Virus record (IMG/VR): IMGVR_UViG_3300010296_000040 | Span: 1-33,180 of that record | Direction: 5' to 3' (one strand) | From: a virus | DNA length: 33,180 nucleotides | Part shown: positions 2 through 28,484 of the stretch, in pieces | Layout: each line of letters opens with the position of its first letter | Position numbering within the stretch: position 1 is the stretch's first letter | Made by a program: the position numbers and the translations under genes | The notes under the pieces: model-generated | The model's input: only the letters and a program-made list of their open reading frames with translations | Database searches by the model: none | Told to the model about the DNA's origin: nothing

Positions 2-3000
2 GGATACAGAAAGGACTCCGATATTGTTGTTTTTGGTGAAGGTACTTTTGCTGATATTAGTCCAATTATTGATGAAAGTAATGGTAGTATCAGTGGTGTA
101 AGAATCACTGATGGCGGTACTGGTTACAAGGCTGCCACAACTACCATGGTTCTTCAGAACCGAGGTATTGATGCAAAATTTATTGCAAATGTTAATGACT
201 GGAAAATCAATCAAGAAGTTAAGAGTAGAAACTTAATTAATTCTCTTGATGCTGCGATTACTAAACCAAACAGCAATACTGAACTGGGACTCCAATTTGT
301 TTCAATTTATCCTGCCAATAGACTTAGATTCCAAGTTGGGGATAATATTGACTCTGGTAATTTGGAGTTGTCTTCAAATCCATCGCACTCTCCAATTTTG
401 GGTTATGCTTATGATGGCAATCCAATTTACGGTCCATATGGATTCTCTGGATCTACTGGAGGACCTGTAAGAAGACTCACAAGTGGATATATCCTTAACA
501 CGTCGCCTAAGGTGGGCCTAAGACCTCCTGGGTACACTCCAGGGTATTTTATCGATGACTATGATTATAACGGTTCTGGCGACCTTGACGAGTATGGTGG
601 CAGGTATTGTGTAACACCACAATATCCCGATGGAACCTATGCTTATTTTTATTCCATTGACGTTGATTCCAGTGGAGTTGCTGAACCAAAATATCCATAT
701 ACTATTGGAAAATTCTTCAAGGATGCTCCAGTAAAAGAGAACTTTGTTGGTGACTTTAATCAGGACATTGATATTAAGAGCCTTAATGTAACTAGAAATA
801 TCGGTCCATACTATACAAATTATGAAAATTCTGTTTATGATCTTATTGATAAAGTAGATTCTTCATTCAAACAAGAATTTAAGATCACCAAAACTCAAAC
901 TGCTGGAGTTACATCTACAACCATCTTCTCTCCTGGCGATGGATATCGAGTTGGAGATAGACTTCAACTCGATAATGCTGGTACAAATGGAACGGGTACA
1001 AACATTATCGTATCCAAAGTTCTAGGTAAAGATATTACCTCTGTCGCTGTTGGAGTTGAAACCTTTATCGATGTTGACCTTAGAGTAATTAATAACTTCG
1101 TATATGGAAAAACTCAAGATCCACATGGACTAATTGATGGAGAAACCATCATTATCAGTGGTATTTCTACTGCTGTCCTTTCTGATTATGAAGGATCATT
1201 CCGCGTTTCCGTTGCAAATAGAAGTGTTGGACTTACCTCATATCTGAATACCTCTGCTAATACTGGCCTCTCTACTTTCATTTCCGTTACTGATATTGGT
1301 GGATTTGAAGTTAATGATATTATTGGCATTGGTACAGAAGTCCTGAGAGTTACTTCTATCGATCCAGAATACTCTAGACTGGGAGTTAATAGGCAAGTTG
1401 GACTTGCAGAAACTCATGATGTTGGTACTAACAATGTTAATCTTTTGCCCACCAGATTCTCATATGATTCTAGGGTACAATCGAGTTATCTTTCCTTCGA
1501 AAATAAGGTACTCTTCTTCAATCCAGAATATACGGTTGGTGTTGGAAGTACTGGGGTTGTCTTTGATTATACTCCTACTGGAATAAACACGGGTTCTTCT
1601 GAGACTAAGGTAACTAGATTCATTCCCGAAAGAGCAATTTACATTAAGAATCATCCATTTACAACTGGACAAAAGTTGGTTTACAACATGGGTGTTGGTG
1701 GAACCTCTATTACATGGGCAAAAACTGCTATCGGAGCGACAAGCGGTATCGGTACAGAAAATCTGGTTGACGGTGGCGAAGTCTATGCAGTAAACCTTGG
1801 CGTTGATTATCTCGGAATTTCTACTGTTGGATTCCCAACAGTCGGTGATGCTGTTTATTGGTACACAGTTGCTGTACCAGTTGGTGCTGCACATTCATTC
1901 ACTACTCAAAATCCAAGAACTACTTCCGTTCTTGAAAGATACAGAGGTCAGGTCTCTACAGGATCTTCTCATGGATTGCAAACGGGAAATAAAATTTCTT
2001 TATCTGCTGTTCCATTCGTTGAGGAAAATATAAAGATCATTTATGATCCTGTTATTAGAAAGATTACTACTGGAAAGGTTTCTTGGTCTTCCACATCTTT
2101 TGATCCTGTTGATTCTACCTTTGATTTCCCAGATCAAACATTCAAGAATGGCGACAAAGTAGTTTACTACACAAATGGTGCCACAATCAGTGAACTTTCT
2201 GATAATGAAATCTATTACATTCTCAGAGAGAGTGCAACTAGAATTAAACTGTGTAGATTTGCATCAGATGTCAAATCTGGTGTTGGTATTGCCATTACCA
2301 GTATGCCATTTGGAACATATGAACTGGCAAAAATAAATCCACCAATTACCGTAAACAAAGGCAACATTCTGAAAATTGATGTTTCAGATCCAGGTCTTGC
2401 CGATATGAGACTGGATATTTTTGAAGATCTTCAGTTTAGAAAGAAACTTGATGTTAATGGTAGTTCTGGTGCGTTTAATGTAATTAGAGATGGTATACCT
2501 GGTCTTGTTGGAGCAAATGTTCAAATTAGAACTCTTGCTGGATTCCCAAGAAAGTCTTTTTACTTCTTGACTCCTATTGTTCCTACAGACCAAAGAAAAA
2601 ATCAAATTAGTGTTGATAACACAGTTAGAGGATTTAACTCAATTACTGTAGAAAATAGTATTCTTGAAAGTGATCATACTATCATTGTAAACAATCAAAA
2701 TTCATTCTCGTTTAACTTAGATAAGAAACCAACATCGTCCGAATTATTCACTACGGTTTCTGGTCTCACGACTGTTTTCTACGAGACCGATTCTTTAGAT
2801 GCTATTGGTCCTATTGCTCAAACCAAGATTAACTTTGAGGGCAAAGGTTATGTGAAACTTCCAAAGGTTATTGGGTTTGATACCATTTCTGGTAAGGATG
2901 CGGTAGTTAAAATCAATTCTGATAAAATTGGCAAAATTGAAACCGCAGAAAGAGTTAAAGATGGATTTGATTATCCAACCGATCCAACTCTCTTACCATT

Positions 3001-5611
3001 CCTCAGTGTTCCCGTTGTATGTGACATTAGTGGAATTTCTAGGATCAATAGAATTCTGGTAACTGATGGCGGAATTAACTATCACCAGCCACCAACACTA
3101 AAAGTTCTGGGTAATAACAACATCAGTCTTTCTGCACATGTTCAGGGTGGATCGGTTGTTTCTGTTGATATTTTAAACAATGCATTTGAATTTGATTCGC
3201 CTCTTGCTATTGTTCCGACCAGGAACACTAATGGTTATGACATTGATGCCATCACTCATTCGAATAACTACGTTACTGTCGAACTTTTATTGGACGAACA
3301 GTTCAATAAATTAGTTAGAACTGGATATGGATCAACAGAAATCAAGTTCCCATTTGCAGTAGGCGATAAAGTTTATGTTGAGGGTTGTAGATTGACTTCT
3401 GCTTCTCTCCAAGCAGGAGAGTCTAATTTTAACTCCGAAAACTATGGATATAGAACCTTTGATGTTACTGCAGTTGATGAGCTAAATTATACCGTAACTT
3501 ATAGTATGGTTGGTATTGCAACTGGCATTCTTGGTTCTTATGAAGATGGATTAACTCTTGGATATATTTCGAATTATAATGATATGGCCAAGTTCCAGAT
3601 GGAACTTATTGATGATGCTAAGTTTATTTCTGGCGAAAAAGTAACCTCTTCCAAATTCGAGGCAACTGTGGTCGAAAATGGTTGGGATGTTAATCTCAGT
3701 CAATTGAGACTTACAAATAGTATTGGTGAATTGAGAGCCGGAGACACTCTTTATGGAGAGAGATCTAAACTCAGTGGTTATGTTGAATCTGTAAACAGAT
3801 TTAATATTAGAACATCTCTTGGACTTTCTAGAGAGAAAGTTGGTGAAGTAGATCAATCCGTAGGTATTCTTAATGATTATTTGCAGAGAATATCCGACAA
3901 CTTCTACTACCAAAAGTTCTCTTATTCTATTAAGAGTAATATTTCCTATGATACTTGGAGAGAGGCAGTAAGGTCTATCATCCATCCATCTGGATTTAGA
4001 GAGTTCTCTGATTTTGTTATTATCGGTGATCCCAAAAAAGATGCCATTGAAAGAAATTATGTGAATGCTGGTCTCGCTAAGTCCACCAACATGGCTGTAA
4101 AAGCAGTTGACCAAAAGATCGATCTTGTTATCAACATTGATAATGAAGCGTATCTTGGTAAGAGAACTAATTTTGCAATGGTCACTGAAGATGATGCATT
4201 GCCAGATGGATCTGTACAAAGAGTGTTCTTCCCAGAAGGAAGACCACTCAAGAGTTATATTCTTAATAAAACTAATAAAGTTTTGAAAATTGATGATATT
4301 AGTGAGGGGTTTGATGGTCAACTTGATAGATCTGGTAATTTGTTTGGCAAAACAAACTTCAAATTAAAAACTAATTCCGTACCATTATTCAAGAAATCCT
4401 TTAATTCTGCAAGTAGTGCAGTTGTGGATTTGAATAACAATTCACTCTCTATTCCAAATCACAATTTCCAAAGTGGACAGAGATTGATCATTGATAGGGG
4501 TGTTGGTAATCCTATTGGTGTTGCTACAACATCATATACCACTGCAACCAAAGACATTCTTATGCGTGTTTCTGGCGCTGGTGGAAGTGCAATGTTTGAA
4601 AATGGATATAACGTAGAAATTCCTGGACCAGTAACAGGTGTCTCTACTGTTGCCGATCCTATTGTTGGAGCAAAACAGTTTGGATTTGGAACTGGAATTC
4701 TTGGAATTTCTACAAGAGGATCTGGTGCAACATTTACTGTTTTGATTACCTATGATGGAACGGGACAACCAATTTCAACTAATGTTGTTCTTCGTGAAGG
4801 TGGTTCTGGTTACTATGTTGGTGATACAGTAAGTATTGCTGGTACTCACCTTGGTGGAGCTACTCCAACTAACGATTTGACTTTCCCAGTTACTGCAGTA
4901 ACGGGTACAAGAGTTGGCATTCAGACAGTTTACACAAATCTTACAGGCACCAATGATGGCGCAGGATCTGGCGCAATCTTCAGTGTAGAAAGAGACGAAA
5001 ACCTTGATATTAGTCAAGTTCTTGTTCTTTCTGGTGGATCTGGTTATGCATCTACAAATACAATTTCTATCGCAGGTACTGCCATTGGTGGAATTTCTCC
5101 AGATGATGATTTATTCCTCACTCCAACCGAATTGGGATCTAATGTATTGCCCGATATAGTATATGTTCAGAAGATTGATGACGTTAAGTTTAGATTCTCT
5201 GGACTTTCCACTTCTATTATTTTCGATCTCACTTCTTTCGGAACGGGAATTCATACACTTAGATATGAAAATCCAAATGAAAATGCCTTGATTCTGATTG
5301 ATGGAATTGTACAAAGTCCACTTCGAAATAAGAAACTCGAAGTTCAGACGGGAGAGGGTATCAGTGCATCTTCTCAGGCAGTTGCAATTTCTGCAGGTAT
5401 TGGTTCCCTGCAAATCGGTGATGTCTTGAAGTTAGATGAAGAATTAGTAAGAATTAACTTCATTGGGGATGGTACTTTTGTTTCTCAGAGAACTGCCACC
5501 GTGAATAGTGAAGTTGATGAGAATTTCTATTATGACAGAAACAGAGTTAACTCCTCTGTAACTAGAGTTGATAGCAATTTGGTGACCATGGATGATCACC
5601 CTCCATATTAA
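2..5611 (+). CDS. Giant baseplate-region virion protein with YHYH-type domain (5' end off window)
   Basis: The frame is open from base 2, so the gene starts upstream; the ATG at 146 is internal. 1869 residues are visible. Residues about 125-235 (numbered from base 2) match the YHYH-type domain of cyanophage structural proteins: HSPILGYAYDGNPIYGPYG at 129, then LDEYGGRYCVTPQYPDGTYA and a closing YPYTIG. The rest is Gly/Ser/Thr/Asn-rich beta sequence with recurring modules: GG-x-GY strands (for example GGSGYYVGDTVSIAGT and GGSGYASTNTISIAGT near the C-terminus) and HGL-x-x-G segments (nt 1124, 1972, about 4458). The C-terminus has a VGDVLKLDEELVRIN-like stretch (here IGDVLKLDEELVRIN). It lies upstream of the gp9/gp10-like gene and gp8, the position of the large wedge protein gp7 in T4, but I see no clear gp7 signature. 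A virion structural role is likely; the exact wedge identity is inference. Codons mostly end in T or A. Confidence 0.8.
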   Translation, partial: GYRKDSDIVVFGEGTFADISPIIDESNGSISGVRITDGGTGYKAATTTMVLQNRGIDAKFIANVNDWKINQEVKSRNLINSLDAAITKPNSNTELGLQFVSIYPANRLRFQVGDNIDSGNLELSSNPSHSPILGYAYDGNPIYGPYGFSGSTGGPVRRLTSGYILNTSPKVGLRPPGYTPGYFIDDYDYNGSGDLDEYGGRYCVTPQYPDGTYAYFYSIDVDSSGVAEPKYPYTIGKFFKDAPVKENFVGDFNQDIDIKSLNVTRNIGPYYTNYENSVYDLIDKVDSSFKQEFKITKTQTAGVTSTTIFSPGDGYRVGDRLQLDNAGTNGTGTNIIVSKVLGKDITSVAVGVETFIDVDLRVINNFVYGKTQDPHGLIDGETIIISGISTAVLSDYEGSFRVSVANRSVGLTSYLNTSANTGLSTFISVTDIGGFEVNDIIGIGTEVLRVTSIDPEYSRLGVNRQVGLAETHDVGTNNVNLLPTRFSYDSRVQSSYLSFENKVLFFNPEYTVGVGSTGVVFDYTPTGINTGSSETKVTRFIPERAIYIKNHPFTTGQKLVYNMGVGGTSITWAKTAIGATSGIGTENLVDGGEVYAVNLGVDYLGISTVGFPTVGDAVYWYTVAVPVGAAHSFTTQNPRTTSVLERYRGQVSTGSSHGLQTGNKISLSAVPFVEENIKIIYDPVIRKITTGKVSWSSTSFDPVDSTFDFPDQTFKNGDKVVYYTNGATISELSDNEIYYILRESATRIKLCRFASDVKSGVGIAITSMPFGTYELAKINPPITVNKGNILKIDVSDPGLADMRLDIFEDLQFRKKLDVNGSSGAFNVIRDGIPGLVGANVQIRTLAGFPRKSFYFLTPIVPTDQRKNQISVDNTVRGFNSITVENSILESDHTIIVNNQNSFSFNLDKKPTSSELFTTVSGLTTVFYETDSLDAIGPIAQTKINFEGKGYVKLPKVIGFDTISGKDAVVKINSDKIGKIETAERVKDGFDYPTDPTLLPFLSVPVVCDISGISRINRILVTDGGINYHQPPTLKVLGNNNISLSAHVQGGSVVSVDILNNAFEFDSPLAIVPTRNTNGYDIDAITHSNNYVTVELLLDEQFNKLVRTGYGSTEIKFPFAVGDKVYVEGCRLTSASLQAGESNFNSENYGYRTFDVTAVDELNYTVTYSMVGIATGILGSYEDGLTLGYISNYNDMAKFQMELIDDAKFISGEKVTSSKFEATVVENGWDVNLSQLRLTNSIGELRAGDTLYGERSKLSGYVESVNRFNIRTSLGLSREKVGEVDQSVGILNDYLQRISDNFYYQKFSYSIKSNISYDTWREAVRSIIHPSGFREFSDFVIIGDPKKDAIERNYVNAGLAKSTNMAVKAVDQKIDLVINIDNEAYLGKRTNFAMVTEDDALPDGSVQRVFFPEGRPLKSYILNKTNKVLKIDDISEGFDGQLDRSGNLFGKTNFKLKTNSVPLFKKSFNSASSAVVDLNNNSLSIPNHNFQSGQRLIIDRGVGNPIGVATTSYTTATKDILMRVSGAGGSAMFENGYNVEIPGPVTGVSTVADPIVGAKQFGFGTGILGISTRGSGATFTVLITYDGTGQPISTNVVLREGGSGYYVGDTVSIAGTHLGGATPTNDLTFPVTAVTGTRVGIQTVYTNLTGTNDGAGSGAIFSVERDENLDISQVLVLSGGSGYASTNTISIAGTAIGGISPDDDLFLTPTELGSNVLPDIVYVQKIDDVKFRFSGLSTSIIFDLTSFGTGIHTLRYENPNENALILIDGIVQSPLRNKKLEVQTGEGISASSQAVAISAGIGSLQIGDVLKLDEELVRINFIGDGTFVSQRTATVNSEVDENFYYDRNRVNSSVTRVDSNLVTMDDHPPY

Positions 5612-5612
5612 C

Positions 5613-5620
5613 TATAAATA
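5613..5620 (+). promoter_or_regulatory. T4-type late promoter TATAAATA
   Basis: Exact TATAAATA begins two bases after the stop codon at 5611 and 29 bases before the ATG at 5642. This is the consensus -10 box of T4 late promoters, which are read by the phage late sigma factor gp55 and need no -35 element. It probably drives the 5642 and 6672 genes. Confidence 0.85.
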
Positions 5621-5641
5621 ACTGAAAAGTTCACTTGAATA

Positions 5642-6661
5642 ATGGCTAAACAGGGTATTAACACAGGATCAGCCCCAAATGATGGCACAGGAGATACTTT
5701 ACTTAATGCAACTCTAAAGATTAATGCGAACTTTGACGATATCTATTCTAACTTTGGTGATGGCACAAATTTAGTAAGTTTTGTCTCCTTTGCTACTACC
5801 GCTGGATACTCTACCAATGCTGGTATTGCATCTACTTCGGTATACTCGGGAACTGCTGCGGGTGTCGCTAGCGATATTAACATTAATACCACTGGTGTGA
5901 TCACTGCACAGTATGCTAACTTTACTGAAGGGATGAAGATTCAGGAGTTTGGTACTCCTGTAGAGACTACTTTTGCAGTTGGTTTTGCAAGAACAATTTT
6001 CAGAATTCAAAATGGTTTTGTTGGTATCGGCACCTCTCTGCCTACCTCTCAACTCCAAGTAACTTCATATTCTCTTGAGAGACCTACAATTCATGCTGTT
6101 CCAAAATCGAGTGGACATGGTTTCCAAGTATCCGATGAAGAGGGAACCGATTCAAGTGCGGTTGTCATAACTTCTGCGGGAAAGGTAGGTATTGCCTCTA
6201 CCGCACCAACATCAAAACTCATTGTTAATGGTGATACTGAACTAATTGGTGTTACAACTCACACAGGAACCAGTCACCTTAATGGATCAATTACTGAAAA
6301 AGTTGTTGGTAATTTCAATACTCCATTGACAGCAATTGGTGGAACATTAACTGTTGATGTTTCCCAGGGAACGGTAATGTTGGGTGGACTTACAACATCC
6401 GTGTCTACATGGTCATTTACTAACGTAACAACACTCAATAGTAAAGCGACAACGGTCACTATTATTAATGATGCTGGACAATCATCCACATATGGCGATG
6501 CATGTAAGGTAAATGGCAATGATATTGCTGGTGGCATTAGATGGGTTGGTGGAAACGCTCCTCCAGCAACTAATGCCGAGGATATTTTGACATTTAGTAT
6601 TGTTAGAGATGGAACTGGTTTAACAAGAGTCTATTGCAGTAGTTCTCTGAATATTCAATAA
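5642..6661 (+). CDS. gp9/gp10-like baseplate wedge-associated protein
   Basis: 339 aa. Residues 5-40 carry the signature shared by the N-termini of T4 gp9 and gp10: INTGSAPNDGTGDTLLNAT, then KINANFDDIYSNFGDG. In T4 this region anchors the protein to the baseplate wedge. The middle has two VGIGT/VGIAST...P-x-x-x-L-x-V segments (GFVGIGTSLPTSQLQV and GKVGIASTAPTSKLIV), a repeat typical of phage tail-fibre proteins. The C-terminal part (FTNVTTLNSKATTVTII ... IRWVGGNAPPATNAEDILTF) is a compact beta domain common at the ends of cyanophage tail proteins. Its length is closer to gp9 (288 aa, the socket for long tail fibres) than to gp10 (602 aa), but the two cannot be separated by eye. A late promoter lies directly upstream and the next gene follows after 10 bases. 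The RBS is weak. Confidence 0.75.
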   Translation: MAKQGINTGSAPNDGTGDTLLNATLKINANFDDIYSNFGDGTNLVSFVSFATTAGYSTNAGIASTSVYSGTAAGVASDININTTGVITAQYANFTEGMKIQEFGTPVETTFAVGFARTIFRIQNGFVGIGTSLPTSQLQVTSYSLERPTIHAVPKSSGHGFQVSDEEGTDSSAVVITSAGKVGIASTAPTSKLIVNGDTELIGVTTHTGTSHLNGSITEKVVGNFNTPLTAIGGTLTVDVSQGTVMLGGLTTSVSTWSFTNVTTLNSKATTVTIINDAGQSSTYGDACKVNGNDIAGGIRWVGGNAPPATNAEDILTFSIVRDGTGLTRVYCSSSLNIQ

Positions 6662-6671: not shown

Positions 6672-9600
6672 ATGGCAACCAGATTTACTCCTGGAAGCGG
6701 TGCGATTCTTAAACCGTTTTTCAACTCCTCTTATGGAATCGAAAAAATTGAAGTAGTCGAAGGTGGATCTGGGTATGCAAGTACAGATCCACCAAAAATT
6801 ACTGTAGATGGTACACAGACTCCTACAGCTGAGGGTGTTTTCTACCCAGTAATCAGTGGTGTCGGCAGCATCAGTGAAATTGTTATTTTTTCTTCTGGTG
6901 CGGGATATTTTCCAGTTTTCTCAACTACAACCTCTGGTCAGGCTTTTATTGATAGGGGTGTTTTTGGTACGGTAGCAGCCGCACATACTGTAGGAACATC
7001 ATCCGTTTTTAGTGGTGATTTCAATATTGTTGATGACGAAATTTTCTTCTCTGCCCCTCCATATGGAAAGCAGGGCCCTGCTGGATTGGAAACAGGATCA
7101 ACATTTTCTGGAAGAATGTTCTCTAGAAAACTCGATCCATATCAAACAAAAGATTATAATGTCATTTTTGACGATATATCTTTAGATTTTACTGGTGTTG
7201 CTGGAACTCAATTTGCACTGACATCAAATTTAAATGACATCACTTCTGCATATAACAATGTGAATGCAGGATCCGATATTGGAAATAACCCCTTTGTTTT
7301 GATTAATAATGTAATTCAAACTCCTGGATTGGATTTTGAAGTTGCGGACTCGACTTCTAATGATATTAATTTTTTAAGCGGAGTTCCTCGTGCTGGTAGA
7401 ATCATTAGAGTTGGATTGACAACTGGTTCTGGTTACTACTACCCACTGGCAGCGTCTGGCAAGGTCGGCATTGGGTCTACGGGAACGGTCAGTGTCATTC
7501 AACTTACTGGCGGCGGGCAGGGGTATAGAAACGTTCCTGATGTTCGTATACGGTCTGCAGAGGGATCTGGAGCCATTGCAACCGCATATCTCGGTGTAAA
7601 TACGACAACAACATATAGTATTTCCACTGCAACATATAATGAAGTAGTTGGAATCATGACCTTTACTACTTCATCATCTCATGATTATCAAGTTGGAGAT
7701 CGAATTAGACTGGTTGGTGCAGGCATAACTGTTGTACAGAATCTTCCTGCCAGAAATATAACAACTTTTGCTTATACTTATACCACTGGTATTGCGACCA
7801 TCACAGTTGACTCTGGTCACTATATTGGGACTGGATCGAATCAATCTAGGCATCTTCTTGTAGAAGGAGTTTTAGTAACTGATCCTGATTTAAATACAGT
7901 TACATTTAGAGAAGATGGATATCCTATTGTTTCTATTGCAAGTACACAAGTAGTAGAAATTCAGGCAGGAATTGGAACAACATCTTACACATATGATAGT
8001 GGCGGAACTGTAAAAACTGGTATTGATACTAATATTCTTGAGGGAAGAAATCTTGTAGGTTTCGATTTAATCGGCGCCACTGCAGATACCTTCACGGCTT
8101 TTGTTGGTATTACTACTCATGCTCATAATTATGTTTCTGGTGGTACTGCAACTAAGGCACATGCTGGTATTATTACTGGACTCGGTATTGTAGATCCTGG
8201 TGCAAATTATTTCATTCCCAAAACTATTTCTTTTGTAGATTATGAACCTTCTAATGGTGTTACTACAATTACCGCAGTTGGCGATGCAATTGGAATTGTT
8301 ACTACAATTGCAAACGTCTATTACACAGATGCTACTGGTATTGCCACAATCCAAGGCACAAATCTTCATGGACTCTCTGTTGGCGATGTTGTCAAACTTA
8401 CTGGAATTGGATTTAGTACTCCTATTGGGGATCTTGAATATCCACTGAGACAACCCTACTATGAGGTAAAGTCCACTCCGAGTACAATTGATTTTACTGT
8501 AAATCTCGGCATTTCTACTCTGGGTGTCCACACACATCAACAATCAACAGGAACGTTCCAAACTTATGCTCCTCATGGAGTAAAGACGGATGACTTTGTG
8601 GTTGCTGCTGGTGTTGCAATGACCACTAATTACTGGCCAGAGTTGAATATCTATGATGCAGTTTATGATGGTGCATCTGGAATTATTACAGTAACTACAA
8701 CGACACCACACTATCTCTCTGAGAGGGATTTTGTAATCATGTCTGGAATTGCCATGACATGCAATTATGATGGCGGAGTTGGCATTCTTACTTTCCCCAG
8801 AGTTACCGATCCATACTATAACGGATCTCAGGTAGACACAGTGGGTACTTCAACCATCTTCTCTTCGTTTGTTGGAACATCCACGATTACTCAGTACAGT
8901 TACGATGGAAGTGGAACTGTACAACATGTCTATAGATATCCACTTCCATATCTTGATGCTTATGGTTTGGTATCCGATCAGTTTGGTGACGGACAATATG
9001 TCCTAGAGAAACTTGATAATGCCAATTTCCGTGTTCAGTCTGGATTAGTTACTTCTAGATGGATGTATTCCAGAGGTGGTACTGTAGAAAAACCAGTTTA
9101 TCTTGAAATTTCGGAACCAATCGGTTATTTCAATCTTCCACTAATTTATAATGAAGATTCTGTTGGATACACCACAAGTGGCATCGGCACAAATGCAACT
9201 GCAGATGTTGCCGTCAATGTTGATGGTGAGATTGGTGTATTTGATGTTAAAGAAGAGGGTGTGGGATTTAAAGTCAATGATGCGTTGACTATTGCTGGAC
9301 TTTCTACGGACCCAAGAGTGGGAGTTCTTACGGAGTTCCAATTAAATGTTATTGAGATTGGAAATGATAAATTCTTTGGATTTTATCCTGGTCAATTCGT
9401 TCTCTTTGATGATATTTCGGAATTCTTTAATGGACTGCGAAAGAAATTTACACTCTCCGTTACCACTGCTGGTGTAACCGAAATTCTCAGTCTCAAGACT
9501 GTAGAAGGTAGTGATATGGATGTCACAAATAACATTTTCATCTATATCAATGACATTCTCCAGACCCCAGGAGAAGCATATAGCTGGAAGGGCAGTAGAG

Positions 9601-11930
9601 TTCTGTTTACGGAAGCTCCAAAGGAAGGATCTAAGTGTTCCGTTTTCTATTATAGAGGATCTTCTATTGATGTTGAGGAGATTGAACCTCCAGCAACAAT
9701 TAAACCTGGAGATATCATTCAGATTAAAGAAAATAAATTGGATGTTCTCGATAGAGACCAGTTTGAGAGAATGTCCAAGAGAATCGTTGCCTCCGATGTA
9801 CTTGAAACCTTTACCTATGATAGTTTGGGTATTAACACATCTCAGGATGCAGAGAGACCACTTTCTTGGGAAAAACAGAAGTCTGATAAAATTATTTCGG
9901 GTGTCTATTATTCTAAGAACAGATTAAATTATAGAAGTAAAATTAGTCCAGTTACTAGAATTATCAATAACGTCGGACAAACAGATGATGCGATATATGT
10001 CCAAAATGCGTTTCCAACATTCAGTGAAATTGATCTTTTGACTGAAGAAGATAGACACATTGAAATTTTCGAAGAAAGAGAGATCGAACCAGCAATTATT
10101 ACTACAGTAGTATCTACTTCCTCTAGTATTTCTAATTTAAGTATTGCTTCTTCTGGTGTTGGATATCTGAATGTCACAAATCCAGAGATTTCTATCTCTG
10201 GCGCAAAAGTGACAAGAAAGGATCCAATGGTCGATTGGAAATTTGATGTGATTACAGGAGAAATCTATTCTTCAAACTTACAGGCCATCACTCAATATGA
10301 ACCCATCATTGCAGTTGGCAGTAGTAGTCAATACATCAATACTCTTAGTGGTTTCTTCTGGGAAAGAGGAAATATTGGATTTGGTGGAACAATAACCTTT
10401 AATGCCATTGACGTTGGAGTAGAAGGATCCAATTATAGAACTATTGCGGTTGGTGAATATGCAGCTGCTGCGACTGCAGTCGCATACGGCGATACTGTTG
10501 GTCCTTGGACGGAATTGAATCTTATCGAACAGAGACAAATTCCTTCTATTGGTCTTAGTGTTGACTATCCAACTACTTTTGATAGAGAATTTAATGATGT
10601 GATGTGGGATCCTACCGCTGGATCTTGGGTTGCCATTGGATTTGGTGGATCCATTTTCACTGGTGTTGGAATTGGAACAACAACTCTTTATAGTCAGTAT
10701 TCTGGTACTCCACAGACACTTCATGGCATTACATATGCACAAAATGAATATATTGTTGTTGGAAATGGTGGTGCTATTCTTGCTTCTAATAAAGGTAGAA
10801 TTTGGGGACTTAAGACCAGTAATACCTTAAAGAATTTGAAAGATGTTATCTATGACGGAAGTAGATTTGTTGCTGTTGGTGATCAAGGTACTATTGTTAC
10901 TTCAACTGATAAAAACTTCTGGTTCCCATTTAGCGAAAATCTTCCAGCAGGCACCACTTCTCCTGCAACCTTTGATTTTGATAAACTGAGATATAAGGAT
11001 GGAATCTATGTTGGCATTACCACACTGGGTGAAATTTATTATTCTTTAGATCTTGCAAACTGGAACTATAGATATAGTGGCCAAAGTCAACCAGTTGGAG
11101 ATCTAGTGTTCTCTGATTTTGGTTTAGAGGGCAGACTTATTGTTGTTGGTAGTTCTGGAACTGCATATTACGCAGAACCAATCTTCAACAGAGCAACTGC
11201 AACTTGTGCCGTTACAAATGGCGGAGTTTCTACTGCAGTGATTATCAATGGTGGTTTTGGATATGAATACGACACTAATCCACCAGTAGTTGTACAGACA
11301 GATACGCCAAAGAGAGAAACTGTATATTCCTTCAAGACAGTTGGTGATTTTGGAACAATTGTTGGAATGAATACCTTTATTACTGGAATTGGATTTAGTG
11401 TTCCACCAAAACTTGAATTCTATCTCAAGTCCGAATTTAATGATAATACTAATCTTGGATATGGATACTCTTCTTTAAATGCTTTTGGTATTAATAATTC
11501 CCAACTCCAAATAGGTGATTATTTCGTAATTTACGATAGTCCAGTAGTTGTTGGACATGCCTTAACTGGAATCAGTACTCACGTTGGTGGGTACAATAAC
11601 TATCCAACAAATAAAGTTGGAATTATTTCAGAAGGCGAGAATTTGAATGGATTGTTCAGAGTCGATGATGTTACTGTGCCTGATGTGGTAAGTGGTATTG
11701 TTACTGTTACTTGTTCATTCTTACCTGGACCAAATAGTAATAGTCAAATTCAAGTTGGAATTGGTACTACAGCAATTAGTGATTATTATGGTAAGTATTC
11801 TTGGGGTAAAATTTACGATTTCCAGAATAGAATTTCTGGAAATCCAGAGAACTTCTTTGTCAATGTTGATGCTGGATTGGTTGGACTTTCCACTGCTGCA
11901 CAAATCAGTAGAACGAAGCCTCTTACATAA
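6672..11930 (+). CDS. Large virion structural protein with seven-bladed BNR/Ycf48-like propeller
   Basis: 1752 aa. Order of parts: GG-x-GY beta repeats (residues 30-80, GGSGYASTDPPKITV); a DDIS-FDG module at about 165-250 (FDDISLDFTG ... VLINNVIQTPG); a long beta region with GGGQGY and HGL-x-x-GD segments (LHGLSVGDVVKLTG); a second DDIS module at about 912-1000 (FDDISEFFNG ... IYINDILQTPG); a charged stretch (about 1000-1180) whose sequence looks helix-compatible; seven regular A/V-V-G-x-x-G strands from 1212 to about 1506; then more GG-x-GY and a C-terminal YSWGKIYDFQNR. By position, between the gp9/gp10-like gene and gp8, it could fill a gp10-like role at the wedge periphery, but no full gp10 match is visible. 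Location in the virion is inferred from neighbours and composition. No signal peptide or membrane segment was seen. Confidence 0.75.
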   Translation: MATRFTPGSGAILKPFFNSSYGIEKIEVVEGGSGYASTDPPKITVDGTQTPTAEGVFYPVISGVGSISEIVIFSSGAGYFPVFSTTTSGQAFIDRGVFGTVAAAHTVGTSSVFSGDFNIVDDEIFFSAPPYGKQGPAGLETGSTFSGRMFSRKLDPYQTKDYNVIFDDISLDFTGVAGTQFALTSNLNDITSAYNNVNAGSDIGNNPFVLINNVIQTPGLDFEVADSTSNDINFLSGVPRAGRIIRVGLTTGSGYYYPLAASGKVGIGSTGTVSVIQLTGGGQGYRNVPDVRIRSAEGSGAIATAYLGVNTTTTYSISTATYNEVVGIMTFTTSSSHDYQVGDRIRLVGAGITVVQNLPARNITTFAYTYTTGIATITVDSGHYIGTGSNQSRHLLVEGVLVTDPDLNTVTFREDGYPIVSIASTQVVEIQAGIGTTSYTYDSGGTVKTGIDTNILEGRNLVGFDLIGATADTFTAFVGITTHAHNYVSGGTATKAHAGIITGLGIVDPGANYFIPKTISFVDYEPSNGVTTITAVGDAIGIVTTIANVYYTDATGIATIQGTNLHGLSVGDVVKLTGIGFSTPIGDLEYPLRQPYYEVKSTPSTIDFTVNLGISTLGVHTHQQSTGTFQTYAPHGVKTDDFVVAAGVAMTTNYWPELNIYDAVYDGASGIITVTTTTPHYLSERDFVIMSGIAMTCNYDGGVGILTFPRVTDPYYNGSQVDTVGTSTIFSSFVGTSTITQYSYDGSGTVQHVYRYPLPYLDAYGLVSDQFGDGQYVLEKLDNANFRVQSGLVTSRWMYSRGGTVEKPVYLEISEPIGYFNLPLIYNEDSVGYTTSGIGTNATADVAVNVDGEIGVFDVKEEGVGFKVNDALTIAGLSTDPRVGVLTEFQLNVIEIGNDKFFGFYPGQFVLFDDISEFFNGLRKKFTLSVTTAGVTEILSLKTVEGSDMDVTNNIFIYINDILQTPGEAYSWKGSRVLFTEAPKEGSKCSVFYYRGSSIDVEEIEPPATIKPGDIIQIKENKLDVLDRDQFERMSKRIVASDVLETFTYDSLGINTSQDAERPLSWEKQKSDKIISGVYYSKNRLNYRSKISPVTRIINNVGQTDDAIYVQNAFPTFSEIDLLTEEDRHIEIFEEREIEPAIITTVVSTSSSISNLSIASSGVGYLNVTNPEISISGAKVTRKDPMVDWKFDVITGEIYSSNLQAITQYEPIIAVGSSSQYINTLSGFFWERGNIGFGGTITFNAIDVGVEGSNYRTIAVGEYAAAATAVAYGDTVGPWTELNLIEQRQIPSIGLSVDYPTTFDREFNDVMWDPTAGSWVAIGFGGSIFTGVGIGTTTLYSQYSGTPQTLHGITYAQNEYIVVGNGGAILASNKGRIWGLKTSNTLKNLKDVIYDGSRFVAVGDQGTIVTSTDKNFWFPFSENLPAGTTSPATFDFDKLRYKDGIYVGITTLGEIYYSLDLANWNYRYSGQSQPVGDLVFSDFGLEGRLIVVGSSGTAYYAEPIFNRATATCAVTNGGVSTAVIINGGFGYEYDTNPPVVVQTDTPKRETVYSFKTVGDFGTIVGMNTFITGIGFSVPPKLEFYLKSEFNDNTNLGYGYSSLNAFGINNSQLQIGDYFVIYDSPVVVGHALTGISTHVGGYNNYPTNKVGIISEGENLNGLFRVDDVTVPDVVSGIVTVTCSFLPGPNSNSQIQVGIGTTAISDYYGKYSWGKIYDFQNRISGNPENFFVNVDAGLVGLSTAAQISRTKPLT
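10281..11190 (+). repeat. Seven BNR-like blades inside the 1752-aa protein
   Basis: Seven phased strands recur: IIAVGSSS (residue 1212), TIAVGEYA (about 1257), WVAIGFGGSI (1319), YIVVGNGGAI (1360), FVAVGDQGTI (1399), YVGITTLGEI (1446) and LIVVGSSGTA (1489). Spacing is about 39-61 residues. Several are followed by a Trp (IWGLK, NFWFPF, NWNYRY), and blades 4 and 5 are preceded by LHGITY and LKDVIYDGSR. This is the blade pattern of BNR/Asp-box propellers, including the seven-bladed Ycf48/Hcf136 type. The repeat is seen directly; the fold is inferred. Confidence 0.7.
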
Positions 11931-11965: not shown

Positions 11966-13561
11966 ATGCCCGCCATCATTTCAGACCAATTTAGAATTCT
12001 CAACGCAGAGACTTTTGTGAAAAGTTTTGTTGGCGTTGGTTCTACAGTTAATAAGTATTATACTTTTATTGGACTACCAAATTCCACGAATCCTGAGGGT
12101 GGCGGTGTTAGTGATTGGAACACTAACACACCTTCGCCATTAGATGGTTTTAAGGAAGAGGGTGAAGTAAAAGAATCTATTATTGCCCTGAAGAAAGTTA
12201 CTGATAAGGATGTCCGCAGACTTATTAGAAAAGTAAACTGGGTTGCGGGACAAACCTATGAGATGTATAGACATGACTATAACATCTATAATTTGACTCC
12301 AACTACTTCACAGGCAAATCTGTATGAAGCAAATTATTATGTTGTCAATGAAGATCTGAGAGTTTATATTTGTTTGCAGAATGGATCTGACCCCGAGAAT
12401 CCAAAAGGTCGTCCTTCTTACGATCAACCACAATTTATTGACTTAGAACCAAGAGCTGCTGGTACATCTGGTGATGGATATATTTGGAAATATCTTTATA
12501 CCATTAAACCATCCGAGATCGTAAAATTTGATTCTATTGAGTATATTCCAGTTCCAGAGAACTGGGGTGTGCAGGGAGAGACTGTATCTACCAAAAATAA
12601 TGCTATTGATGGAAAAATTGAAGTCGTAGTTATTGATAATAGAGGTACGAGTTATCAGCCAATCTCCACTTCATTTGCAAATATTCCCATCCTTGGCGAT
12701 GGAACTGGTGGAAAGGCAACGATTACAATTGACTCTTTCGGTAAAGTATCCGAAATCTTTGTTACTGATGGTGGTAAAGGATACACTCATGGAAATATTC
12801 AGTTCTATCCAGGTGCTCCTGGAAGTGAGGCTGGTGGTCCATTAGAAAACCTCACTAACACTGGTATTGGTACTACAGCAAGAGCTCAATTTGGAGTGAT
12901 TATTCCTCCTAAAGGTGGGCATGGTTATGACATTTATCGTGAACTTGGTGCATATAGAGTTCTTCTCTATTCTAGATTTGAAACTCAAGAGACAAACCCA
13001 GACGTTATTGAGGGCAATGACTTTGCCAGAATTGGAGTTCTTAAAAATCCCACTGTATTTGGAAGTGACAAAGAACTTCTAGATACATCAGTTGTCAGTG
13101 GTCTTCAGGCACTAAAACTGTCTGGTGTTTCTACACAGACAACTTATGCCGTGGATTCTACCATTACTCAAACAGTTGGACTTGGATCTACCGCCATCGG
13201 TATGGTTGCATCATGGGATCCCGTTACTGCAGTTCTTAAGTATTATCAACCAGTTGGTCTTGCTAAGAGTGAGAGTGGATATAAAATTATTCCATTCACC
13301 TCAAATCCAGATGCAGGATATGGAGTTACTATCAATGGTAGTTCTGTAACTGGACCAGTTTTGTCGTTGAACACTGATTTCAACGGTATTACAACGTCAA
13401 TAAATAATACGACATACCAGTTAGGCATTAACTTCGTCGCTGGTATTGCTTCGGCAGAATACAACAAGAAATCTGGAGAGCTTATCTACATCGATAATAG
13501 GACCGCAATTCCCAGATCATCTAGTCAGAAGGAAGACATTAAAATCGTACTGGAGTTCTAA
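11966..13561 (+). CDS. 8: Baseplate wedge protein gp8
   Basis: 531 aa. gp8 is a structural subunit of the hexagonal baseplate wedge. The match to T4 gp8 (334 aa) can be followed by eye in two places. The first is a central block, YICLQNG ... SGDGYIWKYLYTIKPSEI ... EYIPVPENW, against T4 YRCLDVP ... PGDGYVWEYLFEIPPD ... EYIVVPWPEE. The second is the C-terminus, KKSGELIYIDNR ... IKIVLEF, against HSGEMIYMENR ... INILFTF. The N-terminus, MPAIISDQFRILNAETFVKS, is the usual cyanophage gp8 start. The extra length lies between these blocks (about residues 215-330) and holds a GG-x-GY beta module (IFVTDGGKGYTHGNIQFYPG). A late promoter precedes it and the next gene begins 6 bases after its stop. Confidence 0.92.
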   Translation: MPAIISDQFRILNAETFVKSFVGVGSTVNKYYTFIGLPNSTNPEGGGVSDWNTNTPSPLDGFKEEGEVKESIIALKKVTDKDVRRLIRKVNWVAGQTYEMYRHDYNIYNLTPTTSQANLYEANYYVVNEDLRVYICLQNGSDPENPKGRPSYDQPQFIDLEPRAAGTSGDGYIWKYLYTIKPSEIVKFDSIEYIPVPENWGVQGETVSTKNNAIDGKIEVVVIDNRGTSYQPISTSFANIPILGDGTGGKATITIDSFGKVSEIFVTDGGKGYTHGNIQFYPGAPGSEAGGPLENLTNTGIGTTARAQFGVIIPPKGGHGYDIYRELGAYRVLLYSRFETQETNPDVIEGNDFARIGVLKNPTVFGSDKELLDTSVVSGLQALKLSGVSTQTTYAVDSTITQTVGLGSTAIGMVASWDPVTAVLKYYQPVGLAKSESGYKIIPFTSNPDAGYGVTINGSSVTGPVLSLNTDFNGITTSINNTTYQLGINFVAGIASAEYNKKSGELIYIDNRTAIPRSSSQKEDIKIVLEF

Positions 13562-23430: not shown

Positions 23431-26400
23431 ATGGCGCCCAGAGTTTTTACTTACGACGAAACTCGAATCAATTACTTCGTTACCGACACCTTCGGAGACA
23501 TTACGGTGTCGGAAACGTCGTCGGAGGACTTTGGCAATATTACAGACGCCCATATTATTGAAGAAGACGAATTAGGTTTTAACCCAAATGATTACGGACT
23601 AGTAGTCTGGGTAGGCGACATACTTCCATTTGGATCAATGGGTACGATCCAAGATACTTTGGAAGAAAAAGTTGCCTTTGTACCAGCAGTATCGCATCTA
23701 CCCGTTCTCATACAGGGACAAGGAAAGATATCGCGTTCTCAGGCACCTTGGCAGGGGTCTGGCACCCTCTTCGAGATTGGAGGAGGTCTGGAGAGACTGG
23801 TTATACCAGACTTGGGTGCCGCAGGACCAGAACCAACCCTCAGCGGGGAAGCGGCCACAAGACAGACATTCACAGAAGTCGGATCTGGAAGTCTCACAGT
23901 CTCAGACGAGGCACAAACGGCGGAATTCAACATATATCCGTTCGTATCCAGAATTACACTCACCGTTTCAGGTGGAACTTCTCAAGAGTATCCAGATGAG
24001 TATATTGAAGCTCATCCTAACGAGGAAGTTCTCAACGGTACTGGAGATGAGAGTAGAACCTACGATTACTCCATCTTCTCAGGGACATTCGAAGAACAAG
24101 ACTTTGGTTCAATCTCTGTCAAACAAGGTGGCAACTTCTCCGAAGGTGGCACGACATTTGATAGTACGAATAGTTCTATCAATAGTTTCGCAGATGCCGA
24201 TCTTGTAGAGTCTGTTGATTACGGTCTACTTTCCGTAACCGACATTACGGAGATTGTTACCAGAATTATCACTACCAGTGATTTCGCTGCGTACAATCCC
24301 ACATACATTGGAACATTCCTTGCTCAGTCTGGGACAGGAATCGGTCAGGTCGGCGGATTTAATATTGGCGAACATATTAAATTCGGCAGCATCACCAATG
24401 GTAGATCCTTTGAGTGGGATGTAGATACTACCAACGCAACAAGCATTACCATCAGGGCAATCAGAGGTAATGATGCCAATGGTGGAGAAGATCCAGATAC
24501 TTCAAGCGAAAGTTTAGTTCTTGATAGATGGAACGGGACTTCTTGGGTAAGAATTAACACTGTCATTGCATATAATGACAATTCTTTCGATACCTTAAGA
24601 GACATCACCATTCCTCTGGATGCTGTACACAGAGGTCAATATACTTACAGAATTTATCAGGCTGTATCCAGTGGACCAACCTGGGATCACTACGGCGTAA
24701 CTCAGATCAGTTATGAAGTAGAACAGACTGTACCTATTCCTTCTGATGATTGGGGTGAGATTGTTGCCGATCAACGTTACGGTAAGATTAGTACCAAGGC
24801 GACTTACTCTGGTGCTCTTACCAGAGCATTTGAGAGATTTGAACACAGGTATATTGGAGAAAGTGCAACACTATCTCTCAGAGATGGTTTACTGCCAGAC
24901 GAAGAAAGAAAAGTCTTCGCATTCGAAGGTTCTGGTACTATCACTGCAGTTGGTCAACTTGGTCTTGGTCAGGCACCTCAACACACCGTATTTGGCGAAG
25001 AAGGTCAATTTACATTCGGTGGATCTGGTGCGGAAGCATTTGTACCACAAGGAATCGAGAGTTTTGGTCTTGTTCTTACTGGCGGTGCTGCTGCAGAAAG
25101 TATCATTTTCCAAGGCGAAGAAGAACGTGCAGAGTTCTTCTTCACTGGATTCTCCGAAGGACTCAAACTTACTCACTTCCCACCATCGGCAACAGCAGAA
25201 TTTGTTGTCAGTGGTGCTGCTACTGGGGTCAGACTAATCCAATCCTTCATTGGATCGGATCTCTTTACCATCAGTGGTCAACTTCTCGAAGATTATACTC
25301 CATTCTGGACATCTCCTACAGAACAAGATGGTTATGTAGAGCCATTAGATTGGGGATTCATCAGTCAGGTTCCAGATCCACAACCAAATGGATACGAGGA
25401 TTGGGGTCTGGTATCCAAGGTCGCATTTGCTGCCGACGATTGGAAGTATATCATTATCGGTTGGAGACCATTCAGAATTTACGGAGACGACGAAAGTATC
25501 TCTGGTCAAGACTCCTTCAGCAGAGCAAATTACCAGGGTGTCGGTACATTCTTCATGTCCGAACCTGCCGTCGAGGCAGTTGTATTTGATTACGAAACAT
25601 CTGGTATTACTGGCATTGCCACTTACAAGGCAGGCATCAACATCTTTGGTGCCAACTGGTTCAGTCAGGCTCCACAACATACCGTATTTGGTCTCGAAGG
25701 CAAATTCACTATCGGTGGATCTGGTGCAGAGTCCATTACTCCAGCAACAGAGTTTGGTTCTGGTTCCCTCTTTACCATTGGCGGCATTGCAGAGAGTTCT
25801 GCAGTTACGCCTCCTGCTGCAGGGGTCAAGTTCATCAGTGGTGCTGCAGATGTCAAACAATCTCCTGCACCATCCGCGTCTGGTCTCATCACTCTGCGTC
25901 AAGGTAGAGAAGAAGGTCAGACTTATCTTAGAATTATTGATACTGGCGAAAGTTCTGGTCTCTTTGGATTCGCTGGCGGAGCAACAGGCGAAAAACAGAC
26001 AGATTCTTACAACGAGTCTTCCATCTGGTATGGTCAAGAAAACGAAGACTTTGGTCTCCTCAGTGGCACACCAACCTTCGGATTCGATCTTGCACAGACA
26101 CCATCTCTGCCAACGTTCGACGGAACGTCCTCCGCCGAAAACTTCAGCACTAATAATGCAAGTATTGATTGGGGTGACATTGGTAATGGTGAAGGATCGA
26201 ACACCATTGGTGGACCAGATTACGATCAATATCTGTATCCATCCAATACTGGTTTCGTCGATCAAAGTATCGACAAAGGTTACGAAGATTATGGTTGGGT
26301 CAACGAAGAAGATTCTCAACCTACCAGATTCCCACTTTCTGTTGGTGTTGCACTCTCCTTCACCGAGGGAGCACTTGTCACCAGATTCATTCCAAATTTC

Positions 26401-28422
26401 CCTGGTTCTGGTTCAGCTCTCTTTACGATTTCCAGCGCGCTCGAATCGATTACTGTATTCGAACGTGCAGATGTTCCTCTTCTGCCACTTTCTGGTTCTG
26501 CAGAAGAAGCTTATTCTGCACAAACTCCAGAAAGAACCGTCACTATCCTTGTCGATGGTCAAAGTGCCGAGAGTATCACGATCACCGCCGACGAATTTGT
26601 TGGTGTTGGTATTGGAACTCTGTTCTCCTTCGGAGAACTTGTCGAGAGAGTCAGATTCGAAGAAGTTGGTATTGGATCTGCTACCTTTACTGGTGCTGGA
26701 GTCGAGAAGTTCATCTCGAATCCACCAGAAGGCACTCAACTCTTTACCCCATACGGATCTTACTCCGATCTCAGCGCAACCTTCTCTGAGGTTGCAACCA
26801 AGGCAACTCTCCGACTCTCTGGAGAACTGGTTCACCCATTCATCGATTACACTCCACACTACGGTATCGAAAGAAACATCGGTATCGAGACTGGATTCAC
26901 ATTATTCCCTGGTGGATCGGGCGGAGAATATGGAGATCCTGGTATTGTTACTACCAGATTTATTCCAAAATATCCAGCGTCTGGTGTTATTGGAATCAGT
27001 TCCAGAGCTATTTCCAGAACCAACGCTCCTATCATCACAGATGGTACGATCTACATTCTTGGTATTCATACCGCAGCTCAGGGTGTCAGTTCTGGCAGAG
27101 AAACTGGTGCTGGAGAAAGATTTATTCCAGCGTCTATCGATGCAGGTCCTGGTCTCTTCCTCTTCAAAGGAGATGCACCAAACAGACCAATTCAGGTCTA
27201 TGGTTATTATGGAGACGACAAGGATCCTGGTACATCTGGTCAGATTACCATCTCCACAGAAACCACACCAACTCTTTACAGAGAAATTACATCTGCGGCA
27301 GTTGGAATTGGTATTGGGACATTCTCTGGTTATATCACCGAGAGAAAATCCAAGGCCTACTCTGGATCTGGTTCTCTGTTCAAAACAGGTGGATCAGCGG
27401 AATCTATTCCAGTTCGTCCAGTCACATCTGGTACGATCTTTGTTTCGGGCGCATACGGTGCAGAGTACGCATACTCCGCACAAACCCCAGAAAATGTCAT
27501 CACTCTCACTCTCAGTGGAGTCGCTGACAAGGCAGTTCTCCTCACAACTGACTTTGGTGGCACTATCTTTGCATCTGGTGTTGCTGGAGAAAGTGCAACA
27601 TTCGACGAGATTGGATCTGGATCTCTCTTTGCGATTGGTGGAGGAGCGGAATCCGTTACTCCTGTTGTTTCTACATTCACTGTTCTTGTCAATGTTGGTG
27701 GTTCTGCAGACAGCAGAGAAATTGCTGTTTACGGTTACTACGGGGACGACAGAGATCCTGGTACTTCTGGAACAATTTCGATCGTTGGAGAACTTACTCA
27801 TCCAAACATCGACTTTACTCCAGCTGTCACTGGTGTTGGCCTGTTCAAAATCGATGGAACTGCAATTCCCAAGTTCCAACTTACTGCAGATGTTCTGGGT
27901 GGAAAGGCAACAATTTCTGGATCTGCAGAAGTATCCTTCACCTCGGGCGCTGGCGAGCAAACAATGCTCTTCAGAGTTCTTGGAAATGCAGATACTGCAC
28001 TCAATCAAGTCTTTGGATACTACGGAGACGACAAGGATCCTGGTACTTCTGGAACTCTCACGATTTCTGGCATTGGCGAAACGAGAGAAGTTCAAGTCTA
28101 TGGATACTACGGGGACGACAGAGATCCAGGCACATCTGGAAAAATTACTCTCTCTTCGACAACTCTGGTATTCCCATTTGTCGATTACACTCCATCCCCA
28201 GACGGTTCTGGTCTGTTCATCATTGGTGGTTCTGCCGACAAACGTCGCATATTCCCACCCGTCGATGGTCGCGGCGTTCTGTTCAAAATTGGAACAGCGC
28301 AAGAAGCTTATGCAAGAGCAACATATGTTGGAATTGGGAATGTCAGATACTCCTCCACTACTATTGCCTCTACACAACTCGTACAATTCGAAGAGGGTCG
28401 AGTATACGTTATTATCATTTAA
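23431..28422 (+). CDS. Giant repeat-mosaic fibre-like virion protein
   Basis: 1663 aa, RBS GAAGG at 23419-23423. Almost the whole protein is made of short beta repeats of several kinds. (a) G-S-G-x-L/F-F-x-I-G-G-x-A-E-S strands, many copies (GSGTLFEIGGGLER, GSGSLFTIGGIAES, GSGSLFAIGGGAES). (b) D-W/Y/F-G motifs (EDFGNIT, NDYGLVV, DDWGEIV, LDWGFIS, YEDWGLV, IDWGDIG, YEDYGWV). (c) Four copies of VYGYYGDDKDPGTSG. (d) Long-range duplicates such as APQHTVFGEEGQFTFGGSGA at residue 515 and APQHTVFGLEGKFTIGGSGA at 747. No enzyme motif is visible. Size, repeats and neighbours suggest a fibre or tail-surface protein. It has no clear promoter of its own; TATACATA at 23351 lies before the terminator and is doubtful. 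No TATAAATA box lies in the gap upstream. Confidence 0.72.
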   Translation: MAPRVFTYDETRINYFVTDTFGDITVSETSSEDFGNITDAHIIEEDELGFNPNDYGLVVWVGDILPFGSMGTIQDTLEEKVAFVPAVSHLPVLIQGQGKISRSQAPWQGSGTLFEIGGGLERLVIPDLGAAGPEPTLSGEAATRQTFTEVGSGSLTVSDEAQTAEFNIYPFVSRITLTVSGGTSQEYPDEYIEAHPNEEVLNGTGDESRTYDYSIFSGTFEEQDFGSISVKQGGNFSEGGTTFDSTNSSINSFADADLVESVDYGLLSVTDITEIVTRIITTSDFAAYNPTYIGTFLAQSGTGIGQVGGFNIGEHIKFGSITNGRSFEWDVDTTNATSITIRAIRGNDANGGEDPDTSSESLVLDRWNGTSWVRINTVIAYNDNSFDTLRDITIPLDAVHRGQYTYRIYQAVSSGPTWDHYGVTQISYEVEQTVPIPSDDWGEIVADQRYGKISTKATYSGALTRAFERFEHRYIGESATLSLRDGLLPDEERKVFAFEGSGTITAVGQLGLGQAPQHTVFGEEGQFTFGGSGAEAFVPQGIESFGLVLTGGAAAESIIFQGEEERAEFFFTGFSEGLKLTHFPPSATAEFVVSGAATGVRLIQSFIGSDLFTISGQLLEDYTPFWTSPTEQDGYVEPLDWGFISQVPDPQPNGYEDWGLVSKVAFAADDWKYIIIGWRPFRIYGDDESISGQDSFSRANYQGVGTFFMSEPAVEAVVFDYETSGITGIATYKAGINIFGANWFSQAPQHTVFGLEGKFTIGGSGAESITPATEFGSGSLFTIGGIAESSAVTPPAAGVKFISGAADVKQSPAPSASGLITLRQGREEGQTYLRIIDTGESSGLFGFAGGATGEKQTDSYNESSIWYGQENEDFGLLSGTPTFGFDLAQTPSLPTFDGTSSAENFSTNNASIDWGDIGNGEGSNTIGGPDYDQYLYPSNTGFVDQSIDKGYEDYGWVNEEDSQPTRFPLSVGVALSFTEGALVTRFIPNFPGSGSALFTISSALESITVFERADVPLLPLSGSAEEAYSAQTPERTVTILVDGQSAESITITADEFVGVGIGTLFSFGELVERVRFEEVGIGSATFTGAGVEKFISNPPEGTQLFTPYGSYSDLSATFSEVATKATLRLSGELVHPFIDYTPHYGIERNIGIETGFTLFPGGSGGEYGDPGIVTTRFIPKYPASGVIGISSRAISRTNAPIITDGTIYILGIHTAAQGVSSGRETGAGERFIPASIDAGPGLFLFKGDAPNRPIQVYGYYGDDKDPGTSGQITISTETTPTLYREITSAAVGIGIGTFSGYITERKSKAYSGSGSLFKTGGSAESIPVRPVTSGTIFVSGAYGAEYAYSAQTPENVITLTLSGVADKAVLLTTDFGGTIFASGVAGESATFDEIGSGSLFAIGGGAESVTPVVSTFTVLVNVGGSADSREIAVYGYYGDDRDPGTSGTISIVGELTHPNIDFTPAVTGVGLFKIDGTAIPKFQLTADVLGGKATISGSAEVSFTSGAGEQTMLFRVLGNADTALNQVFGYYGDDKDPGTSGTLTISGIGETREVQVYGYYGDDRDPGTSGKITLSSTTLVFPFVDYTPSPDGSGLFIIGGSADKRRIFPPVDGRGVLFKIGTAQEAYARATYVGIGNVRYSSTTIASTQLVQFEEGRVYVIII
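27196..28140 (+). repeat. Four copies of the VYGYYGDDxDPGTSG repeat
   Basis: 45-base in-frame copies at 27196-27240, 27727-27771, 28009-28053 and 28096-28140 (residues 1256, 1433, 1527 and 1556 of the 1663-aa protein). The consensus V-Y/F-GYYGDD-K/R-DPGTSG is invariant at 13 of 15 positions. The interval shrinks from 177 to 94 to 29 residues. Each copy is followed by a beta strand (QITIS, TISIV, TLTIS, KITLS). The Asp cluster could bind a cation; this is inference. Confidence 0.9.
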
Positions 28423-28440
28423 TGCAATATTTTTAATAAG

Positions 28441-28448
28441 TATAAATA
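28441..28448 (+). promoter_or_regulatory. T4-type late promoter TATAAATA
   Basis: Exact TATAAATA lies 44 bases before the ATG at 28485, in a 62-base gap. It probably drives the 152-aa, 134-aa and long-fibre genes together, since no other late box or terminator was seen between them. Confidence 0.85.
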
Positions 28449-28484
28449 AAACAGAAGCAAAGTCCGTTTCATGAGATTTGAATC

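Follow-up and report, generated by a model that had tools for sequence, protein, structure and literature searches.

The gp7-like baseplate wedge protein encoded in the window, which is the entire 33,180-base virus record, carries a predicted seven-bladed beta-propeller that is an optional insertion in gp7, present in some T4-like cyanophages and absent from others. Propellers in phages are already known; what is new is the optional insertion of one into a T4-like wedge protein, its distribution over a clade and the evidence against its capture from the host. No description of a gp7 propeller was found in the literature searched, which comprised open-licence papers, and the gp7 records of isolates examined, annotated as baseplate wedge, large exoprotein, YHYH-domain or hypothetical proteins, leave the propeller undescribed. 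Little is understood of how marine T4-like cyanophages recognise their receptors. With its sharply placed insertion site and with relatives that naturally have or lack it, this self-contained domain allows a clean test of whether the wedge itself contacts the host.

The wedge protein and its locus

The protein is 1752 aa long (6672-11930, plus strand), and its gp7 label rests on annotation, on matches to PHROG 2885 and 708 and on gene order, given that its homologue in S-SSM7 is annotated gp7 and lies in a gene order matching that of the window. Homology to T4 gp7 was sought, and phmmer returned no solved chain matching the protein. Downstream lies the baseplate wedge protein gp8 (11966-13561, plus strand; PF09215, 3.4e-9; PHROG 438), a conserved neighbour that served as the marker for the phage tree. 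The PHROG wedge families and PF09215 thus bear out the placement, in the initial annotation, of the propeller within a baseplate-region protein adjoining gp8. Upstream are a T4 gp9/gp10-like protein (5642-6661, plus strand; PF07880, 1.9e-8) and a further gp7-like wedge protein, whose open reading frame is open at the window edge (2-5611) and which has a YHYH domain near its N-terminus (PF14240, 1.4e-19).

Sequence and predicted fold of the propeller

Seven strands of the [AVI][VI][GA] type are anchored at residues 1212, 1256, 1318, 1359, 1398, 1444 and 1488 (10305, 10437, 10623, 10746, 10863, 11001 and 11133 in the window), that of blade 6 being a variant of the motif, IYVGITTLG. The AlphaFold2 model built from 29 related sequences (alignment A3) has a pLDDT of 87.8, a pTM of 0.87 and approximately 28 strands, and each of the seven motifs forms the second strand of a blade. 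Closure of the ring was read from strand order and the pattern of tryptophans: an N-terminal 'DWKF' strand bears the conserved Trp that is seen in the fourth strand of the other blades, a pattern which suggests Velcro closure of blade 7. Residues 1184-1506 are predicted with high confidence to form a seven-bladed beta-propeller. A longer model of the gp7 C-terminus, 693 residues in length, yields the same propeller and the same fold matches, with less certain flanks. The alignment, the AlphaFold2 model and Foldseek place the domain at 10221-11189 (plus strand). The seven blades counted in the initial annotation are consequently recovered both as phased strands and in the structure prediction that it had called for; of the span first proposed, 10281-11190, the 3' end holds and the 5' boundary is slightly wider.

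Foldseek against the PDB identified Ycf48/HCF136 (PF14870, PSII_BNR) as the best match (E 2.5e-10, TM 0.67/0.72), and the resemblance to this factor first noted from the sequence is therefore upheld at the level of fold. The two share seven blades, superposing with an rmsd of 4.2 over approximately 332 columns, but at 14% identity; the WD40 proteins that follow in the same search mostly have a higher rmsd. In a library of viral structures the top match was the S-SSM7 model (E 9.2e-40), followed by several phage proteins including the S-CBWM1 BNR protein and a DUF6242 protein, and several of these E-values are better than that of Ycf48 in the PDB library, although E-values from the two libraries are only roughly comparable.

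No Pfam family, PF14870 included, matched the propeller segment of the window even at E 10, PF14870 had no match in the whole record, and single-sequence searches of Pfam, PHROG and the PDB with the propeller returned no matches; a profile search of the PDB with a 10-sequence propeller alignment gave insignificant matches only. A match to PF14870, one of the profiles named in the initial annotation for such repeats, is absent for the window segment and present for the DSL-LC03 homologue at the same gp7 position, which reaches 31.1 bits against a 27-bit cut-off over part of the PF14870 model and matches Ycf48 chains at 6e-5. An independent blade matrix was derived from Limnohabitans phage DC31, with 200 shuffles of the 1752-aa protein as the null. 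It scored blade 5 at 31.1 bits, blade 4 at 12.8 and blade 6 at 11.6, against a shuffle maximum of 9.1 (n=200), and these three blades are above chance by sequence alone; the four other blades are too diverged for this test and are supported by the homologue alignment and structure prediction.

The propeller is inserted between two repeats

A GGxGY repeat of approximately 45 aa (R1, residues 1139-1183; 10086-10220, plus strand) directly precedes the propeller and a second (R2, about residues 1507-1550; 11190-11321, plus strand) directly follows it. The two align with a score of 47, which none of 500 shuffles reached. R2 opens the conserved gp7 C-terminal region (residues 1507-1752; 11190-11927, plus strand), a region that is also kept in relatives without a propeller. 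In phages that carry the propeller R1 and R2 lie approximately 300-340 residues apart with the propeller between them, while in S-SM2, Bellamy, SynMITS9220M01, B23, S-T4 and ACG-2014f the two repeats are directly adjacent and the propeller is missing.

A propeller occupies the same gp7 site, just before gp8, in S-SSM7, S-SSM6a, Sf-FS3, S-SCSM2R, S-8S53/55/56, S-CAM9, DSL-LC03 and DSL-LC02, the identity for the isolate gp7 propellers aligned being 25-54%. The two classes of gp7 were told apart by HMMs for the propeller and for the C-terminal flank. The propeller was detected in the window, its metagenomic relatives, S-SSM7, Sf-FS3, S-SCSM2R, DSL-LC03, S-8S53/55 and S-CAM9, with a weaker match in DSL-LC02. 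It was absent, with the flank kept, from the six phages with adjacent repeats and from S-SRM01 and S-SKS1, which are also without the GGxGY repeats. For Syn9, MED4-213, S-CREM2 and Syn1 the HMMs found no propeller and the flank as fragments at most. It is suggested that a propeller of the BNR/DUF6242/PSII_BNR type was inserted in the linker between tandem beta-rich repeats near the gp7 C-terminus, an event that would leave the repeats undisturbed because the ends of a closed propeller are adjacent.

Distribution and probable gain

Mapped on a gp8 tree with 23 phages, of which 11 carry the propeller and 12 do not, the distribution requires one change, with a support of 95/96, and 92% of bootstrap trees agree on the split between carriers and non-carriers, in a sample partly picked via propeller matches. 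Given that the carriers form one gp8 clade, a single gain with vertical retention is the simplest reading, short of proof; on this reading a single clade of Synechococcus T4-like phages probably owes the propeller to one acquisition by its ancestor, with inheritance alongside the wedge genes since then. Among phage records gp8 was found in 485 and the propeller in 13 cyanophage records by tblastn, in addition to DSL-LC02 by HMM. At 89 of the 90 metagenomic loci with enough sequence, gp8 follows the propeller match at a distance of 683-790 nt. The recorded hosts of the isolates that carry it are all Synechococcus or Parasynechococcus.

Role of the propeller

In T4 there is one gp7 per wedge. 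With the same copy number in the carriers, six propellers would be displayed at the periphery of the baseplate, where they may contact a surface polysaccharide or an outer-membrane receptor of the host during adsorption. Host-surface binding is the likeliest role, to which an even chance may be given, and receptor or glycan binding is plausible. Several relatives of the propeller are annotated as tail fibres or are encoded beside tail-fibre, collagen-like or baseplate genes. Precedents are two baseplate-periphery propellers for which host-surface binding has been proposed: the seven-bladed phiKZ gp131C, a proposed but unproven receptor binder, and the propeller platform of the phi11 RBP, which has a modelled GlcNAc site and differs in being five-bladed and part of a trimeric RBP (PMC4901313). 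Neither was among the top 50 PDB fold matches of the window propeller. In an evolution experiment with Synechococcus and S-PM2d, early mutations arose in the baseplate wedge gene gp8 and in fibre genes (PMC9910659), a result that supports a part for the cyanophage baseplate in adsorption generally and not for the window propeller in particular.

The propeller may instead be a structural docking platform within the virion, for example for a tail fibre or an accessory baseplate protein, and have no host ligand. Propellers, including Ycf48, commonly mediate protein-protein contacts (PMC8038367), and this one has been retained across one whole clade. The hypervariability expected of a fast-evolving receptor binder is not seen, given that loops and strands are equally variable (entropy 1.33 vs 1.29, p 0.54) and that the divergence of the propeller is only modestly above that of the gp7 flanks. 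This pattern of conservation places docking second, as a serious possibility that falls somewhat short of even. It is weakened by those propeller relatives that belong to proteins in contact with the host, tail fibres for example, and by the baseplates of close relatives that are without a propeller, such that the shared wedge does not need one. That related T4-like cyanophages do without the propeller also counts against the host-binding reading. The fuller version of the host-binding reading, in which one insertion of a phage propeller gave the clade six extra host-contact domains at the baseplate, apart from the tail fibres, and so shaped its host range, is doubtful.

Known sialidase propellers are six-bladed. 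A role as a glycan-degrading enzyme, for example a sialidase-type glycosidase, is on this ground and others very improbable: degenerate Asp-box-like SxDxxxW turns do occur in blades 5 and 6, but the window propeller matches no glycosidase or sialidase in Pfam and the positions invariant in its alignment are chiefly Gly, Trp, Ser and hydrophobic residues, as is typical of blade structure.

Origin of the propeller

The closest kin outside gp7, by HMM and by profile, are proteins of Limnohabitans phage DC31 and Actinomycetia phage DSL-LC01, a Caulobacter phage KSC tail fibre and the S-CBWM1 BNR protein. Unlike the window propeller, these phage BNR/DUF6242 propellers form proteins of their own or segments of fibres, and no example of them turned up within a gp7 wedge protein. 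The gp7-propeller HMM scores five phage virion propellers at 40-122 bits vs 12-21 bits for seven cyanobacterial Ycf48 proteins, and hhalign gives the phage virion propellers a probability of 99.2% (score 143.9, E 9.7e-20), Ycf48 80.9% (score 45.8) and the control 2.9%. In the propeller tree, which has long branches flagged by the program, Ycf48 is monophyletic (100/100, branch 2.54) and all phage propellers fall on the other side. The boundary between gp7 propellers and those of other phage proteins is blurred, and the propeller of the KSC tail fibre lies among the gp7 ones with modest support (86/88). It is suggested that the donor was most likely another phage virion protein.

Ycf48 binds D1 through a conserved arginine patch. 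This patch was located from the positions at which 5ojp and 5ojr differ by an Arg-to-Glu change, and its four positions are G, S, Q and T in the window, in an alignment with a probability of 80.9%. Ycf48 is, moreover, a stand-alone, exported lumenal lipoprotein with a signal peptide or lipobox (PMC8038367), whereas the window propeller is internal to a virion protein and is without a signal peptide of its own. At E 1e-3 the gp7-propeller profile had no match in the 194 genomes scanned, all from the class to which a Synechococcus genome belongs; it detects the phage positive controls but at this threshold fails on Ycf48 itself, so that the scan excludes a close cellular relative only. PF14870 has matches in 57 of 59 genomes of the same class. 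From the profiles, the tree, the genome scan and the arginine patch, it appears that Ycf48 and the window propeller share a superfamily and that direct capture from the host is unlikely.

Host capture of Ycf48, which the initial annotation had raised as an origin and which would allow the domain to act on or mimic photosystem II assembly, was accordingly rejected as the main reading and is the least probable of those considered: the best PDB fold match and the PF14870 and Ycf48-chain scores of the DSL-LC03 homologue speak for it, but the nearer relatives are phage virion proteins, the phylogeny with cyanobacterial Ycf48 that had been proposed puts the gp7 propellers neither within nor beside any Ycf48 subclade, and the class that holds Ycf48 yielded no match to the gp7 profile. 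An origin independent of Ycf48, the other possibility raised, is favoured, from a phage BNR/DUF6242-type lineage rather than from sialidases specifically. A Ycf48-like fold, or a 'photosystem II assembly factor' label in a phage, is thus no evidence of captured photosynthesis genes.

Two of the relatives merit description. The DC31 protein (4521-6311, 596 aa) consists mostly of such blades, in more than one ring's worth. The DSL-LC01 gene (4875-5747) is surrounded by collagen-like genes and groups with the phage propellers; its annotation, 'photosynthesis system II assembly factor', is probably misleading.

Other proteins of the window

Towards the end of the window, a 1663-aa protein (23431-28422) contains several copies of the motif 'YGYYGDD(K/R)DPGTSG'. 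A Leu/Ser-rich open frame of 1028 aa (25388-28474) overlaps its gene on the same strand; it is probably mechanical and was set aside. The open reading frame at 28485-28943 matches the N-terminal domain of a major tropism determinant (PF18454, 1.6e-12) and is a possible receptor-binding or fibre-adaptor protein. The last protein, which is large and runs off the window end (29369-33178), has three stretches that match the CBM_5_12 carbohydrate-binding module (7.1e-18).
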